64,000 nucleotides of DNA. Origin: Kribbella sp. CA-293567. GTDB lineage: Bacteria; Actinomycetota; Actinomycetes; Propionibacteriales; Kribbellaceae. Every line of letters begins with the position of its first letter. Within the stretch, counting starts at the first letter, position 1. The notes below the pieces were generated by a model. It was not told the DNA's origin, ran no database searches, and was given only the letters and a program-made list of their open reading frames with translations. Where the stretch lies: the NCBI RefSeq assembly GCF_027627575.1, contig NZ_CP114065.1, positions 7,378,001 to 7,442,000 on the forward strand. Reading direction: 5' to 3'. The position numbers were made by a program, and so were the translations under genes. Below are positions 36,722 to 48,738 of the stretch, one piece after another.

Positions 36722-37366
36722 TCAGCGGCGCTGGACGACTTCCTCGGCGACCTCGACCAGCTCGCGGTCGTTGGCCTCGGTCTCGGGGTCGTGGGCCGGC
36801 TCCAGCCGGTCGTGCGCGATCAGGGACTGGACGGCCCGCAGTACGGCGCTCGCCGCGGCCCCCCAGGTGGAGACGTAGGAGAACTGCCACCACCACAGCG
36901 CCTCGATGACGCGACCCTCTTCGTAGTGCGCGAGTCCGTGCACCAGATCGGTCGCGATCGCCGTCAGGTCGTCGGAGAGCCGGTTGACGGTGATCTCCGG
37001 CGGAGCGGCGTACGGGTCGAAGACCTCGGCGTACTCGTCCAGGCCCTCGAACAGGACCGCCAGCCGGGCGCGCATCGCGTCGAGATCCGGATCCGGCCCC
37101 GCGTCGCTCTCGAACCGCTCCTCGGGAACGAAGTCCTCGAAGGCACCCAGCCGCCCGCCGGCCAGCAGCAACTGGCTGACCTCGAGCAGCAGGTACGGCA
37201 GCGAGGCGAGTCCCTCGTCGACACCGTCCTCGTCGGGTTGCGCGGCGATGTCGCGCACGGAGATGAGGAAGCTCTGCACCTGGTCGGCGATCTGTTCGGC
37301 GAATTCCAGCAGGTCCTCGGAATCCGTCGCCAAAGCGCGCTCAGCAATATCGGTTGATTCAGTCAT
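36722..37366 (-). CDS. DUF5063-type protein
   Basis: The 214-residue acidic protein is mainly helical, with [23 protein letters not shown] at the start and [40 protein letters not shown] near the end. This matches the actinobacterial family found next to recR; function unknown. No membrane segment. The ATG at 37366 overlaps the recR stop by 8 bases, so it is the last gene of the ybaB-recR operon. Confidence 0.8.
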
Positions 37367-37958
37367 CGATCGATCGTCGCCCTTCAAACGCCCGTCCGAG
37401 TGTGACCTCGTCGGCGTACTCGAGGTCACCGCCTACTGGAAGTCCACTAGCCAAACGGGTGACGCGCAACCCCATGGGCCGGAGCAACCGGCTCAGATAG
37501 GTCGCTGTCGCCTCACCCTCCAGGTTGGGATCGGTGGCCAGAATGATCTCGGTCACCTCTCCGCTGGCCAGCCGCTGCATCAGTTCCCTGATCCGCAGCT
37601 CGTCCGGCCCGATCCCCTCGATCGGCGAGATCGCGCCGCCGAGGACGTGATAGCGACCCCGGAACTCGCGGGTCCGTTCGATCGCCACGACGTCCTTGGC
37701 CTCTTCGACCACGCAGATCAGCGCGAGGTCGCGACGCGAGTCGCGGCAGATCCGGCACTGCGTCTCCTCGGAGACGTTGCCGCAGATCTCACAGAACTTG
37801 ACCTTCTCCTTCACCTGCACCAGCACGTGCGCGAGCCGGCGGACGTCGGTCTCGTCGGCCGACAACAGGTGGAAGGCGATCCGTTGCGCGGACTTCGGAC
37901 CGACGCCGGGAAGCCGGCCGAGCTCGTCGATCAGGTCCTGGACGGCGCCTTCGTACAC
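37359..37958 (-). CDS. recR: Recombination protein RecR
   Basis: The 199-residue protein has the helix-hairpin-helix [17 protein letters not shown], the four-cysteine zinc motif [16 protein letters not shown], and a Toprim domain ([18 protein letters not shown]). Its length is exactly that of typical RecR. It acts with RecF and RecO in loading RecA at gaps. The GTG at 37958 was chosen since the family starts VYEG...; it follows the ybaB stop with a 1-base gap. Confidence 0.95.
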
Positions 37959-37959
37959 G

Positions 37960-38430
37960 TCAGCCCTGGATCTGACCGGGTGAACCGGTCGCGTCCGGCT
38001 TGCCGAAACCGATGCCCGGCTTCGTCGTGCTGTCGTCCTGGACCGGCTCGTCGCTCGGGCCACCGCCGCCGAACATGCCACCGAGGTCGGGCAGACCGCC
38101 ACCGCCGAGCCCACCGGCCAGCGGACCCATCGCGTTGGCCGCGACCTGCTTGGCGTTCTCCGAGGCGTCGCGAACCGCGGCGACGATCAGATCGGCCAGT
38201 GTCTCGGTGTCGTCGGGATCGACCGCCTGCGGCTTGATCGTCAGGCTGAGCAGCTCACCGGTGCCGGACACGAGCGCGGTCACCAGCCCACCGCCGGCAC
38301 TCCCCTCGACCTCCTGGCTCTCCAGGCTGGCCTGAGCCTCCATCAACTGGCTCTGCATCGCCTGCGCCTGGGCCAGCAGGTTGGACATGTCGAAGCCACC
38401 AGCACCTTGCGAGCCGCCACCGTCGAACAC
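37960..38430 (-). CDS. ybaB: YbaB/EbfC-family nucleoid-associated protein
   Basis: The 156-residue protein has the YbaB core ([53 protein letters not shown]), preceded by a short Gly-rich start and followed by a Gly/Pro-rich tail longer than in E. coli. It is a small DNA-binding dimer coupled to recR in most bacteria. The GTG at 38430 follows GGGAG. A DnaA-box cluster lies about 120-160 bp upstream. Confidence 0.9.
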
Positions 38431-38547
38431 CGCGATCTCCCGTCCGAACTGCTTGCCAGTTCCACTTGCTCCCCGAGCCTAGCCGGTCCCCCGGACAACC
38501 CACCGCGCCGGGAGCACCCAACCGGAAACCGATAAGTCTCCCAAGCC

Positions 38548-38657
38548 TTCTCCACAAGTTGTGGACACCTTTATCCACAGGCTGTGGAGAACCCGGTACC
38601 GCGGGCAACGGTTGCCGCTTGGGTGCTATCCACCGGTAAGCACACTGCTGTGGATGA
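38548..38657. promoter_or_regulatory. Cluster of DnaA boxes upstream of ybaB-recR
   Basis: Four 9-mers alternate in orientation with 2-3 bp gaps: TTCTCCACA (38548-38556), TGTGGACAC (38560-38568), the perfect box TTATCCACA (38571-38579) and TGTGGAGAA (38583-38591). Boxes one and four make the whole cluster palindromic. A fifth, TGTGGATGA, lies at 38649-38657. All but the perfect box have a single mismatch to TT(A/G)TCCACA. It is not next to dnaA or dnaN, so it is not a standard oriC. Confidence 0.75.
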
Positions 38658-38699: not shown

Positions 38700-39110
38700 C
38701 CGCCCGAGGCGCCGGGGGGATCGACTCAATCCTGCTGGCTGAGGTGCTGCGGAACTCGACGTCTTGGCGCCAGGGCCGCTGAGGCACCGGCGAGCTTGAC
38801 CCACTCCGTGACTGCCGAAAGCTCTGGGGAGCTCGACGCTCTATGTGGTCCCTGAGGCGCTGCGGAGCCCGACTCGCTCCGTGGCTGCGAGGCGCCGGGA
38901 GCTTGACGTCTCGGCGTCGGGGCCGTCTGAGGCACCGGAAAGCTCCACTCAACCCGTGGCCGCCGAAGCGCTGCGGAGCTCAACGTCTTGGCCCCAGAGC
39001 CGCCTGGGCCGCCGGGGAGCTCGACTCTGCCCGAGGCGCTGCGGAGCCCCACTCACTCGGTGGCTGCGAGGCGCCGGGGAGCTCGGCGCCTTGGCGTCGG
39101 GGCCAGGAAC
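38700..39110. repeat. Degenerate ~179-bp tandem repeat array
   Basis: GAGGCGCTGCGGAGCC starts at 38854 and again at 39033, and GGCTGCGAGGCGCCGGG at 38882 and 39061, both 179 bp apart. Sub-motifs such as GCTCGACGTCTTGGC recur within units in shorter steps. The array fills most of the 966-bp gap between ybaB and dnaX. The remainder, 39111-39396, holds no supported gene; a 36-codon plus-strand frame ending at about 39372 could be a remnant. Confidence 0.7.
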
Positions 39111-39396: not shown

Positions 39397-42300
39397 TCAG
39401 TTGGGCTCTTCGCTGATGATCTGAGCGCCGAGAGTTTCGGCGAGGAGGTCTGTGTGGCTGCGCGAATCTTCTTCGAGGACGAGGTCGTCGTCGCCGATCG
39501 CCTCGGCCTCTTCCTCCGGCGTCAACGGCACCTCGACAACCTGCACCTGCGACGCACGGCGACTCTGCTCGGCCGCGACCGCAGCCTCCGCGGCACGACG
39601 CTTGCTGGCTGTCTGCTCCCGGGGTCCCCCAGCGGGCGACTTGGGATTCGCCGCCGGCGCGGGCGGGCCGCCGGCCTGCTGATCCGACTGCAGGCCCGAT
39701 TGAATGGGCACCCCCCCGTTCTGTACGCCGACCGCCTCCGCACCTTCCGGCGCTCGTACCGCGGTCCCGGTCCCCGATGCCTGCGCGGTGGCCTGAGCAT
39801 TTCCGACACCGGCGGTCGGGTAAGCGTCTGCCCCTGTGGATGCGGCGCCCGACGATGCGGAACTCGAACCCGGCGCGATGCCAGAGCCCGAAGATCCATC
39901 CGAACCCGCTGGCGCGATGCCTGAGCCCGATGCCTCCGAACCCGACGGCGCGACGCCAGGCGATCCAACTCCTGAACCCGACGACGCGCCCCCAGAAGCT
40001 GATGAGGCATCCCAAGAACCCGAAGCCCCAGCGCCCAAACCTGTGGGCTCAGCGCCTCCACTCACATCCCCGGCACCCAGGCCTGCGGGCTCACCCGCCC
40101 CGGAGGGTGCACCCGACGGGCTAGCGCCCGGGCCGGGGTGGCCGCCTGACGGGCCGGCGGCCCAACCGGGGTCGCCGCCTGACGGGCCGAAGGCCGAACC
40201 AAAGCCGGAGGGCCCACCCGACGCGCCTGCACCCAGACCGGAAGACCCACCTGACGGACCAGCATCCAGACCGGTGGACCCACCTGATGGGCCTTGCCCC
40301 GGACCCGAGGAAGCAGCGCCCGTCCCCGAAGGACCAACGCCTTGACCCGACGACGCAGACCCCGAGGCCCCGCCCGAACCGAACGCCCCAGGCCCCGAAG
40401 CCCCGCCTTGCCCAGACGGGTATTGAGAACCAGCGTCACTCACCGGCGCACCGCTACCAGCCGCACCGGGCGAGTCCCAGGACGACGACGACGCGCTTGG
40501 CGGCACAGCCGCGGCCGGAGCGACCGCGCTCGGGTCGCTGGACGGGTCGACGACGGCTTCGACGCGGCGGTTGAGGCCGATCGTGGCGATCATCGCCTCG
40601 CGGAGAATCTCGTCGCTGCCGGACCGTGCGAAGCTCTCGCGGGCTCCGGCGTTCACCAGCCCGAGCGTGAGGGTCTGCTCGTCGATCGCGATGACCTGGG
40701 CGTTCTGGCTCAGCATGATCCAGGCGAACCGGCGCTTAGCCTTCACCGCCTCGAGAATCTGCGGCCAAAGCCGGCGCACGTCGATCAGCCCGACCGACCC
40801 CGACGAAGTACCGGCTACGGCCGGCCCAGAACCGCGAGCCGGAGCAGGCGCCGGCGCAGCTTGAGCAGGCGCCGCAGGTGAGCCGGTAGTAGATGAGCTG
40901 CTCGAAACAGGCGGGTTCACGGACGCTGCCGCCTGACCACCCGAAGAGGAGGCCGCAGGCTCCGCACCCCAGGCCCCCGAGCGAGAGCCGGAATTGTTCA
41001 CCACTGCAGGCGCAGCAGCGTCCTGCCCAGAAGCACCCGCCGGTACTGCGGACTGCGAGTCCCCAGCCGCTCCCGGCTTCGAAGCCCCGTCCTGCGCACC
41101 GTCCGACGCGACGTGCCCCGCGCCACCAGCTTGATCCGCAGCATTGGGTTGACCCGACGCCTGACTCTGTCCGGGCGCTTCGCCCTGTCCGCTGCCCAAC
41201 CCGGCCGCAGCGCCTTGTGCACTTGACCCTTGACCAGAAGCCGAAGACCCACCTTGGCTTGCCGCACTACCGTGACCGTCGGCCTGCCCCGGCCCACCGA
41301 CTGACCCCGAGGGCTGGGAGGCGACCGCAATCGGCTGTGCGTAGGCAGCCGCCTGAGCACCGCCAGGCGCAGTACCGGCTGCTTGATCCGGGCTGACGTG
41401 GTTCGCCGCGCCGGCGGCGGGCGCAGTACCGGCTGGGTTGTAGTCGACGCCTACCGCCGGGGCGGGCGCAGTACCGGCGGCTCCACCCGTGATGGTGAGG
41501 CGGCGCTCCATCCGGTCGAGGCGGGCTTGGATGCCGTTGGTCGAGTCGTCGGCGCCAGGCAGCAGGACCTTGGCGCAGATCAGCTCGAGCTGCAGCCGAG
41601 GAGCCGTCGCGCCACGCATCTCCAGCAATCCGGCCGCGACGATGTCTGCCGCCCTGGTCAGCTCCGCAGGGCCGATGCCCGCGGCCTGCGTCTGCAGTCG
41701 CTCGCCCTGGTCCTCGGCGGCCTCGATCAGCCCGGAGGCGACCGCATTCGGCACCGCGGACAAGATCACCAGGTCGCGGAGCCGGCGCAGCAGATCTTCG
41801 GCGAAGCGCTTCGGGTCCTGCCCGGTCTCGATCACCTTCTCGATCGTCTCGAAGACGGCGCGGCTGTCGTGCGCCGCAAACCCGTCCACGCAGCCATCGA
41901 GCAGCGAGTCCGGCGTGAAGCCGAGCAGCTGCACGGCGAGCCGATACGTCACGCCTTCCTCGTCGGCACCACCGATCAACTGGTCGAGCACGCTCAGTGA
42001 GTCACGCACCGATCCGGCACCGGCGCGGACCACCAACGGCAGCGCGGCCGGCTCGATCGTGACGCCCTCGGCCGTGCACAGGGTCGACATGTAGTCGGCC
42101 AGCGCCTTCGGCGGGACCAGCCGGAACGGGTAGTGGTGGGTCCGGGACCGGATCGTGCCGATCACCTTCTCCGGCTCCGTCGTCGCGAAGATGAACTTCA
42201 GGTGCGGCGGCGGCTCCTCGACCAGCTTCAGCAGGGCGTTGAAGCCCTGCGTGGTGACCATGTGCGCCTCGTCGATGATGTAGATCTTGTAGCGGCTCTC

Positions 42301-42657
42301 GACCGGCGCGAAGAAGGCCCGCTCGCGCAGGTCGCGCGCGTCGTCGACACCACCGTGCGAGGCGGCGTCGATCTCGATCACGTCGATGCTGCCGGGCCCG
42401 CCGCGGGCGAGGTCCGTGCAGGACTTGCAGACGCCGCACGGCTCGGCGACCGGGCCCTGCTCGCAGTTGATCGCGCGGGCCAGGATCCGGGCGCTGGTGG
42501 TCTTGCCGCAGCCGCGTGGACCGGAGAACAGGTAGGCGTGGTTCACCCGGTTGTTGCTCAGCGCGTTCCGCAGCGGAACGGTGACATGGTCCTGCCCGAT
42601 CACCTCGGAGAAGGTCTCCGGGCGATACCGGCGATACAACGCAAGGGGTGCTTCCAC
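39397..42657 (-). CDS. dnaX: DNA polymerase III subunits gamma/tau with very long low-complexity tail
   Basis: The 1086-residue protein starts with the clamp-loader AAA+ domain: LYRRYRPETFSEVIGQDHV, Walker A GPRGCGKT at 46-53, a zinc module with CGVCKSC, and IDEAHMV. A Gly/Ser/Gln/Ala-rich linker follows, then the tau domain (LWPQILEAVKAKRRFAWIMLSQNAQV). After that comes a second, very long Gly/Ser/Pro/Ala stretch with repeating GPSGG / GLGAG units, and an acidic end (VEVPLTPEEEAEAIGDDDLVLEEDSRS). GTG at 42657 has AGGG 8 bases upstream. The family is usually 600-800 residues. Confidence 0.95.
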   Translation of the reverse strand: MEAPLALYRRYRPETFSEVIGQDHVTVPLRNALSNNRVNHAYLFSGPRGCGKTTSARILARAINCEQGPVAEPCGVCKSCTDLARGGPGSIDVIEIDAASHGGVDDARDLRERAFFAPVESRYKIYIIDEAHMVTTQGFNALLKLVEEPPPHLKFIFATTEPEKVIGTIRSRTHHYPFRLVPPKALADYMSTLCTAEGVTIEPAALPLVVRAGAGSVRDSLSVLDQLIGGADEEGVTYRLAVQLLGFTPDSLLDGCVDGFAAHDSRAVFETIEKVIETGQDPKRFAEDLLRRLRDLVILSAVPNAVASGLIEAAEDQGERLQTQAAGIGPAELTRAADIVAAGLLEMRGATAPRLQLELICAKVLLPGADDSTNGIQARLDRMERRLTITGGAAGTAPAPAVGVDYNPAGTAPAAGAANHVSPDQAAGTAPGGAQAAAYAQPIAVASQPSGSVGGPGQADGHGSAASQGGSSASGQGSSAQGAAAGLGSGQGEAPGQSQASGQPNAADQAGGAGHVASDGAQDGASKPGAAGDSQSAVPAGASGQDAAAPAVVNNSGSRSGAWGAEPAASSSGGQAAASVNPPVSSSSSTTGSPAAPAQAAPAPAPARGSGPAVAGTSSGSVGLIDVRRLWPQILEAVKAKRRFAWIMLSQNAQVIAIDEQTLTLGLVNAGARESFARSGSDEILREAMIATIGLNRRVEAVVDPSSDPSAVAPAAAVPPSASSSSWDSPGAAGSGAPVSDAGSQYPSGQGGASGPGAFGSGGASGSASSGQGVGPSGTGAASSGPGQGPSGGSTGLDAGPSGGSSGLGAGASGGPSGFGSAFGPSGGDPGWAAGPSGGHPGPGASPSGAPSGAGEPAGLGAGDVSGGAEPTGLGAGASGSWDASSASGGASSGSGVGSPGVAPSGSEASGSGIAPAGSDGSSGSGIAPGSSSASSGAASTGADAYPTAGVGNAQATAQASGTGTAVRAPEGAEAVGVQNGGVPIQSGLQSDQQAGGPPAPAANPKSPAGGPREQTASKRRAAEAAVAAEQSRRASQVQVVEVPLTPEEEAEAIGDDDLVLEEDSRSHTDLLAETLGAQIISEEPN

Positions 42658-42709
42658 GACGGCAACCCTAGCGCCGAGCGCCGACAATTCCTCTCCGCCC
42701 ATCCACGGG

Positions 42710-43582
42710 TCAGCGCAGACCTTCCTCCAGGAGGCCCAGCAGGTAGTCGCCGTAGCCCGACTTGGGCAGCGCGTCGGCACAACGCTGCAGGCCCGCATCG
42801 TCGATGAAGCCGCGGCGCCAGGCGATCTCCTCGGGACAGCTGATCTTCTGCCCCTGCCGCGTCTCGACGGTGCGGACGTACTCACCGGCCGACATCAACG
42901 CGTCGAACGTCCCGGTGTCCAGCCACGCCGTACCGCGCGGCAGCACCTCCACCTGCAGTCGCTTGTCCTGCAGGTAGATCGCGTTGACGGCGGTGATCTC
43001 CAGCTCGCCCCGCGCCGACGGCTTGACCTCCTTGGCGACCTCGACGACATCACTGGAGTAGAAGTACAGCCCCGGTACGGCGTACTTGCTCTTCGGCCGA
43101 GCCGGCTTCTCCTCGATGCTCAACGCCCGCCCGTCCTGGTCGAACTCGACCACCCCGTACGCCGACGGATCCGCGACCCGGTACGCGAAGACGACTCCAC
43201 CGTCCACGTCGTTGAACCGCTGCAGATGGAGGCCGAGGCCGGGTCCGTAGAAGATGTTGTCGCCGAGCGCGAGCGCCACCGATTCGGACCCGATGAACGA
43301 CTCCCCGATCAGGAACGCCTGCGCCAGCCCCTCGGGACGCGGCTGTTCGGCGTACGAGATCTCCATCCCGAACTGTGAACCGTCACCCAGCAACCGCCGG
43401 AACTGCCCGAGATCCTCCGGCCGCGTGATCACCAGCACCTCGCGAATGTTCGCCAGGATCAGCGTCGAAAGCGGGTAGTAGATCATCGGCTTGTCGTAGA
43501 CCGGCAGCAGTTGCTTGCTGACCCCCATCGTCAACGGCTGCAACCGGGTCCCGTCCCCGCCGGCCAAGATGATCCCTCGCAT
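42710..43582 (-). CDS. rfbA: Glucose-1-phosphate thymidylyltransferase
   Basis: The 290-residue protein begins [41 protein letters not shown], the classic RmlA signature, and has the [10 protein letters not shown] and [13 protein letters not shown] blocks. It makes dTDP-glucose for dTDP-rhamnose and other deoxysugars. The length is standard. It stands alone here, 52 bases before dnaX in the same direction, without rmlB, rmlC or rmlD beside it. Confidence 0.95.
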
Positions 43583-48650: not shown

Positions 48651-48738
48651 GGAGGATTCGCCTAGTGGCCTAGGGCGCACGCTTGGAAAGCGTGTTGGGG
48701 GCAACCCCTCACGAGTTCGAATCTCGTATCCTCCGCCA
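48651..48738 (+). tRNA. tRNA-Ser (anticodon GGA)
   Basis: The acceptor arms GGAGGAT and ATCCTCC pair fully and the CCA end is encoded. The anticodon loop TTGGAAA places GGA at 48685-48687. A long variable arm (TTGGGGGCAACCCCTC) marks it as a serine tRNA. The T-arm reads GAGTTCGAATCTC. It is the likely attachment site of the downstream element. Confidence 0.95.
48701..48738 (+). other. Inferred attL: 3' part of tRNA-Ser
   Basis: AICEs of the pSAM2 type integrate into tRNA 3' ends and keep the gene intact. The element starts directly after this tRNA. No second copy of its 3' end was found further right in the window, so the core length cannot be measured and attR is presumed to lie beyond 64000. 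Confidence 0.45.

Follow-up and report, generated by a model that had tools for sequence, protein, structure and literature searches.

The DnaA-box cluster upstream of ybaB-recR in this Kribbella genome appears, on a modest balance of probability, to be a regulatory module that binds DnaA at the ybaB-recR promoter, both the binding and the regulation being predicted from sequence. Titration of DnaA may be an additional role of the cluster, and the position of the array upstream of ybaB-recR suggests that DnaA might also tune repair.

Layout of the DnaA-box array

The array sits between a dnaX-like ORF, named by sequence and position, and ybaB-recR, and all three genes lie on the minus strand (Table 1). 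The layout described in the first-pass annotation was recovered in full: four boxes alternate in direction within 44 bp (38548-38591), separated by gaps of 3, 2, and 3 bp, with one perfect box and with the outer two as exact inverses on opposite strands, and a fifth box follows 57 bp further. A distal box in the orientation of box 5 recurs in many relatives. A feature absent from that annotation is a 19-nt outer inverted repeat (38513-38531 and 38609-38627), which is concentric with the boxes and essentially private to this genome, as 17 of its 19 positions match here and 8 to 15 in other genomes. A mobile-element palindrome was rejected, since in congeners the cluster is not flanked by the outer repeat. 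Degenerate direct repeats of approximately 49 nt, with a spacing of approximately 75, lie between the cluster and dnaX at 38703-39106. Further away, roughly 9 kb from the cluster, is an SRP RNA gene (RF00169; 47591-47687), and a tRNA lies at 48651-48735 of the window.

Table 1. Features at the ybaB-recR locus, in coordinates of the window.
Feature	Coordinates	Strand	Description
recR (recombination mediator)	37359..37955	-	TIGR00615
ybaB (YbaB/EbfC nucleoid-associated protein)	37960..38430	-	GTG start; TIGR00103
Putative ybaB promoter	38476..38498	-	TTGTCCGGG-N8-TAGGCT; RecA-NDp/PafBC-like
Conserved element	38525..38544	-	TTGGGAGACTTATCGGTTTC; GGGA part at same proximal-box offset as in dnaA/rpmH element
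DnaA box 1	38548..38556	+	TTCTCCACA; promoter-proximal in ybaB sense; position kept in 36/37 Kribbella genomes
DnaA box 2	38560..38568	-	GTGTCCACA; one mismatch
DnaA box 3	38571..38579	+	TTATCCACA; perfect
DnaA box 4	38583..38591	-	TTCTCCACA; exact inverse of box 1
DnaA box 5, distal	38649..38657	-	TCATCCACA; one mismatch
dnaX-like ORF, upstream	39397..42885	-	

The window (the whole 64-kb stretch of DNA analysed, at 7378-7442 kb of the genome) has no overall excess of boxes, with 25 found versus 19.6 expected. Four boxes in 44 bp were never obtained in 60 simulated 500-kb sequences (30 Mb), in which the maximum was three, reached once; the array of four boxes is therefore not explained by chance. 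Box statistics for the whole genome, a single 7.61-Mb contig, derive from pattern searches, and the three-box core of the array was found at a single place in this genome. The cluster had been placed outside oriC with no dnaA or dnaN close by, and this is borne out: in the record, dnaA is located at 333 kb and the cluster at 7416.5 kb, which puts them 0.53 Mb from each other when counted across the ends. Dense DnaA boxes away from oriC, as looked for in a datA-like site, are thus present at the cluster.

Conservation and spacing relative to the putative promoter

The ybaB upstream region was compared in 37 Kribbella genomes, this genome counted in. The first-pass annotation had named absence from close relatives as a refuting outcome; the cluster is instead kept in 36 of the 37, with DnaA-box cores at the ybaB promoter; five of these 36 have two cores only, and in all five the proximal box still holds its place. 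The exception (G028) keeps ybaB-recR but has neither the boxes nor the TTGTC motif nor the GGTTTC element. The far-side neighbour, judged in the relatives by sequence alone, is dnaX in some Kribbella genomes and another gene elsewhere, and the cluster stays beside ybaB. No box pair, nor three cores within 66 bp, was found upstream of recR at 79 other actinobacterial loci, and the ybaB-recR cluster is likewise missing in five relatives from the same order. A literature search on Kribbella DnaA boxes found no paper. In genomes of one family (f20), a similar three-box pattern occurs at places without dnaA or ybaB-recR matches; one such locus (L125, among L118-L128) matches dnaN.

The actinobacterial promoter of the LexA-independent DNA-damage response (RecA-NDp/PafBC) has the consensus tTGTCRgtg-8nt-TannnT (PMC5656591). 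The sequence TTGTC-N12-TAGnnT at ybaB fits this consensus in core and spacing, and TTGTC, the exact spacing, and TAnnnT are present in most genomes; the R and gtg positions are unmatched here, where CGGG stands instead of Rgtg. The putative ybaB promoter thus resembles a PafBC-type damage promoter, with PafBC use predicted. The genome carries pafA, and a PafB-like WYL/WCX protein is encoded nearby; pafC was not singled out. The conserved element TTGGGAGACTTATCGGTTTC is unique in the genome when up to two mismatches are allowed, and the TGGGAGACT-TCGGTTTC element has no other place at up to two mismatches and three places at three mismatches.

The offset of the proximal box start from TAGnnT, the -10-like element, is 63 nt in 9 genomes, 64 nt in 14, 74 nt in 4, 75 nt in 8, and 76 nt in 1. 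All 36 module-bearing genomes therefore fall into only two classes, 63 to 64 or 74 to 76 nt, which differ by one helical turn. The distance from GGTTTC to TAG behaves similarly, at 38 nt in 21 genomes, 48 nt in 1, and 49 nt in 14. When mapped onto a ybaB-recR DNA tree, the box distance switched class at least five times and the GGTTTC distance at least four times, each by about one turn; the two distances are not independent, as most switches shift both. At two loci (L017 and L022), the step comes from the use of an alternative box adjoining GGTTTC. The spacer sequence differs widely among genomes, and the stretch between TAG and the ybaB start codon, used as the internal control, takes 17 lengths with at least 20 changes on the tree. 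Five successive steps of 10 to 12 nt have a P of about 1e-4 if net changes are uniform over 3 to 20 nt, a rough figure given that the tree comes from a single 1.4-kb locus and the null is arbitrary. Quantised spacing of this kind is expected if a box-bound protein must face RNA polymerase and unexpected for a titration site, and it speaks for promoter control rather than an independent titration site.

Related box pairs at other loci

Inverted box pairs cluster around dnaA, with 49 of 61 pairs in seven genomes lying within 0.6 Mb of it versus approximately 8.8 expected (from per-genome figures). Pairs at dnaA/rpmH, parA, dnaB, and an Lrp/methionine-gamma-lyase intergenic position are found in all seven fully listed genomes. 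By exact-core count, the ybaB pair is found in at most six of these seven, as G028 is without it; in another genome (G058) ybaB was not located and no ybaB pair was assigned in this count. Ahead of an ORF other than ybaB, G058 carries a DnaA-box pair just before a PafBC-like motif (L166, near 3383).

The loci read closely were picked for carrying a pair, so that the figures of 15 out of 15 that follow describe spacing and gene association, not presence. In 15 of 15 dnaA/rpmH loci, GGGGA comes after the pair at offset 13, followed by TTGACC-N18-TACCGT, and TACCGT lies 50 nt from the pair. The composite TGTGGA-N7-GGGGA is common to this region and the ybaB module, and GGGA at the same offset ties the module to the dnaA-region element. 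At dnaB the pair lies 38 nt from TAC[CG]GT in 15 of 15 loci, with a PafBC-like motif beyond TAC[CG]GT at variable distance and a LexA-like box, e.g., TCGATCAGGTGTTCGA, in 14 of 15. The box layout of the ybaB cluster recurs at the dnaA-dnaN region in 16 of 16 Streptomyces-like loci (family f22). The ybaB-recR site is probably one member of a small DnaA regulon in the neighbourhood of oriC, along with dnaA/rpmH, parA, and dnaB.

The dnaB upstream region (L162, at C1:448.7 kb of this genome, and L167-L180) brings together an inverted DnaA-box pair, a LexA-like SOS box, and a PafBC-like motif, and the DnaB protein of this genome has an intein-like insertion that splits its family matches into two stretches. 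The divergent intergenic region between an Lrp-type regulator and a methionine-gamma-lyase-like gene (L045, C1:485.5 kb; L181-L186) holds a conserved array, usually of four boxes, with 5 to 11 cores within 2 kb in relatives; this array is possibly a true titration site.

Proposed mechanism, alternatives, and known systems

In the proposed mechanism, binding of DnaA to the inverted box pairs would be cooperative, at approximately -75 to -120 from the predicted transcription start, and the bound DnaA would make contact with RNA polymerase from a constant helical face. The target would be a promoter of SigA type with PafBC (DNA-damage) character, on which DnaA would most likely act as an upstream activator, the direction of the effect being predicted as well. 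The dose of YbaB and RecR would thereby be coupled to the cell's DnaA or initiation state, and the cluster, by holding DnaA, may titrate it as a side effect. Several points weigh against this mechanism: five genomes carry two cores only, G028 keeps ybaB-recR without the module, the Rgtg positions are unmatched here, and the enrichment of pairs near oriC would suit titration too. Put more broadly and tentatively, Kribbella may possess a compact DnaA regulon (dnaA/rpmH, parA, dnaB, and ybaB-recR) that combines helically phased DnaA modules with PafBC-type damage promoters, with a LexA-like box also at dnaB, so that initiator and damage response jointly set the expression of repair and replication genes; this wider scheme is possible and falls short of being likely.

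The first-pass annotation had offered two roles, of which promoter control gains from the quantised spacing, the likeness to a PafBC-type promoter, the GGGA offset shared with dnaA/rpmH, and the similar pairs kept at dnaA/rpmH, parA, and dnaB; the strong enrichment of inverted pairs within 0.6 Mb of dnaA is also compatible with titration. That the cluster is a DnaA reservoir (datA-like, or like the Streptomyces clusters H24, H69, and D78), which lowers free DnaA and delays re-initiation and lies before ybaB incidentally, is unlikely. The array is very dense, inverted pairs are concentrated near dnaA as given above, and E. coli boxes too accumulate near oriC and titrate DnaA (PMC12371093). However, a reservoir has no need of a fixed promoter phase, yet the spacing is quantised; moreover, the cluster accompanies ybaB even where the opposite neighbour differs, and the five two-core genomes keep the proximal box in place.

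It is distinctly improbable that a protein other than DnaA, recognising TCCACA/TGTGGA palindromes, controls ybaB-recR. Strong conservation is indeed limited to the cores, and plus-strand boxes are often preceded by GTG rather than TTN, but the commonest minus-strand box (TGTGGATAA, 30 of 62) reads as the DnaA-box consensus in reverse complement, and the layout is identical to the one at the Streptomyces-like dnaA-dnaN region and similar to what precedes dnaA in Kribbella. An element acting in RNA, in which the nested palindrome forms a transcript hairpin (attenuator or terminator), is very improbable despite folding z-scores of -4.5 (DNA) and -5.0 (RNA): the site precedes the putative promoter and has no Rfam match, and the bases adjoining the outer cores pair in few relatives. 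The hairpin was rejected on the grounds that the unconserved outer arms are private to this genome and that the cores are constant, with no covariation. A second, cryptic, or former replication origin, for which the likeness of the box layout to the Streptomyces-like dnaA-dnaN region could speak, is the least credible of all and was rejected, as the sampled and noisy GC skew (mostly negative to the left and positive to the right of dnaA, with local exceptions) has no switch at the cluster and neither dnaA nor dnaN is nearby.

A DnaA-controlled ybaB-recR promoter, if true, would be an actinobacterial case of the initiator DnaA acting as a transcription factor on recombinational repair, and the one-turn changes in spacing across species would constitute a natural experiment that makes face-of-helix contact testable. 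It would also mean that some actinomycete DnaA-box clusters around oriC are promoter modules and not pure titration sites.

Among known systems, datA of E. coli consists of dense DnaA boxes away from oriC and promotes hydrolysis of DnaA-ATP with IHF. The Kribbella cluster is likewise a dense group of DnaA boxes outside oriC, the two being compared on box density only. The H24, H69, and D78 sites of Streptomyces coelicolor are reportedly DnaA-box clusters studied as replication control sites; they too are actinomycete clusters in the chromosome segment around oriC, set beside the Kribbella cluster by description and not by sequence. As a transcription factor, DnaA of E. coli controls repair genes (PMC8203912), and its regulon, whose targets include replication and repair genes, displays a preference for box pairs 2 to 3 bp apart (PMC11317965). 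Gaps of 2 to 3 bp are shared with the Kribbella array, but the E. coli pair model joins tandem boxes, whereas the Kribbella boxes form inverted, alternating pairs that keep helical phase with the promoter. The closest precedent in gene content comes from Borrelia burgdorferi, where DnaA binds upstream of dnaX-ebfC, ebfC being the ybaB homologue, and activates the operon in vitro, as well as binding upstream of other replication genes (PMC9879097). In both organisms DnaA boxes precede an operon carrying the ybaB homologue, with binding predicted in Kribbella. The Borrelia sites lie in the dnaX 5' UTR and comprise a single predicted DnaA box plus a region that resembles no known box (PMC9879097), whereas Kribbella has a consensus-like box array upstream of a separate, PafBC-like ybaB-recR promoter. 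Control of a ybaB homologue by DnaA is thus already known in Borrelia, and the Kribbella arrangement would be a variant thereof.
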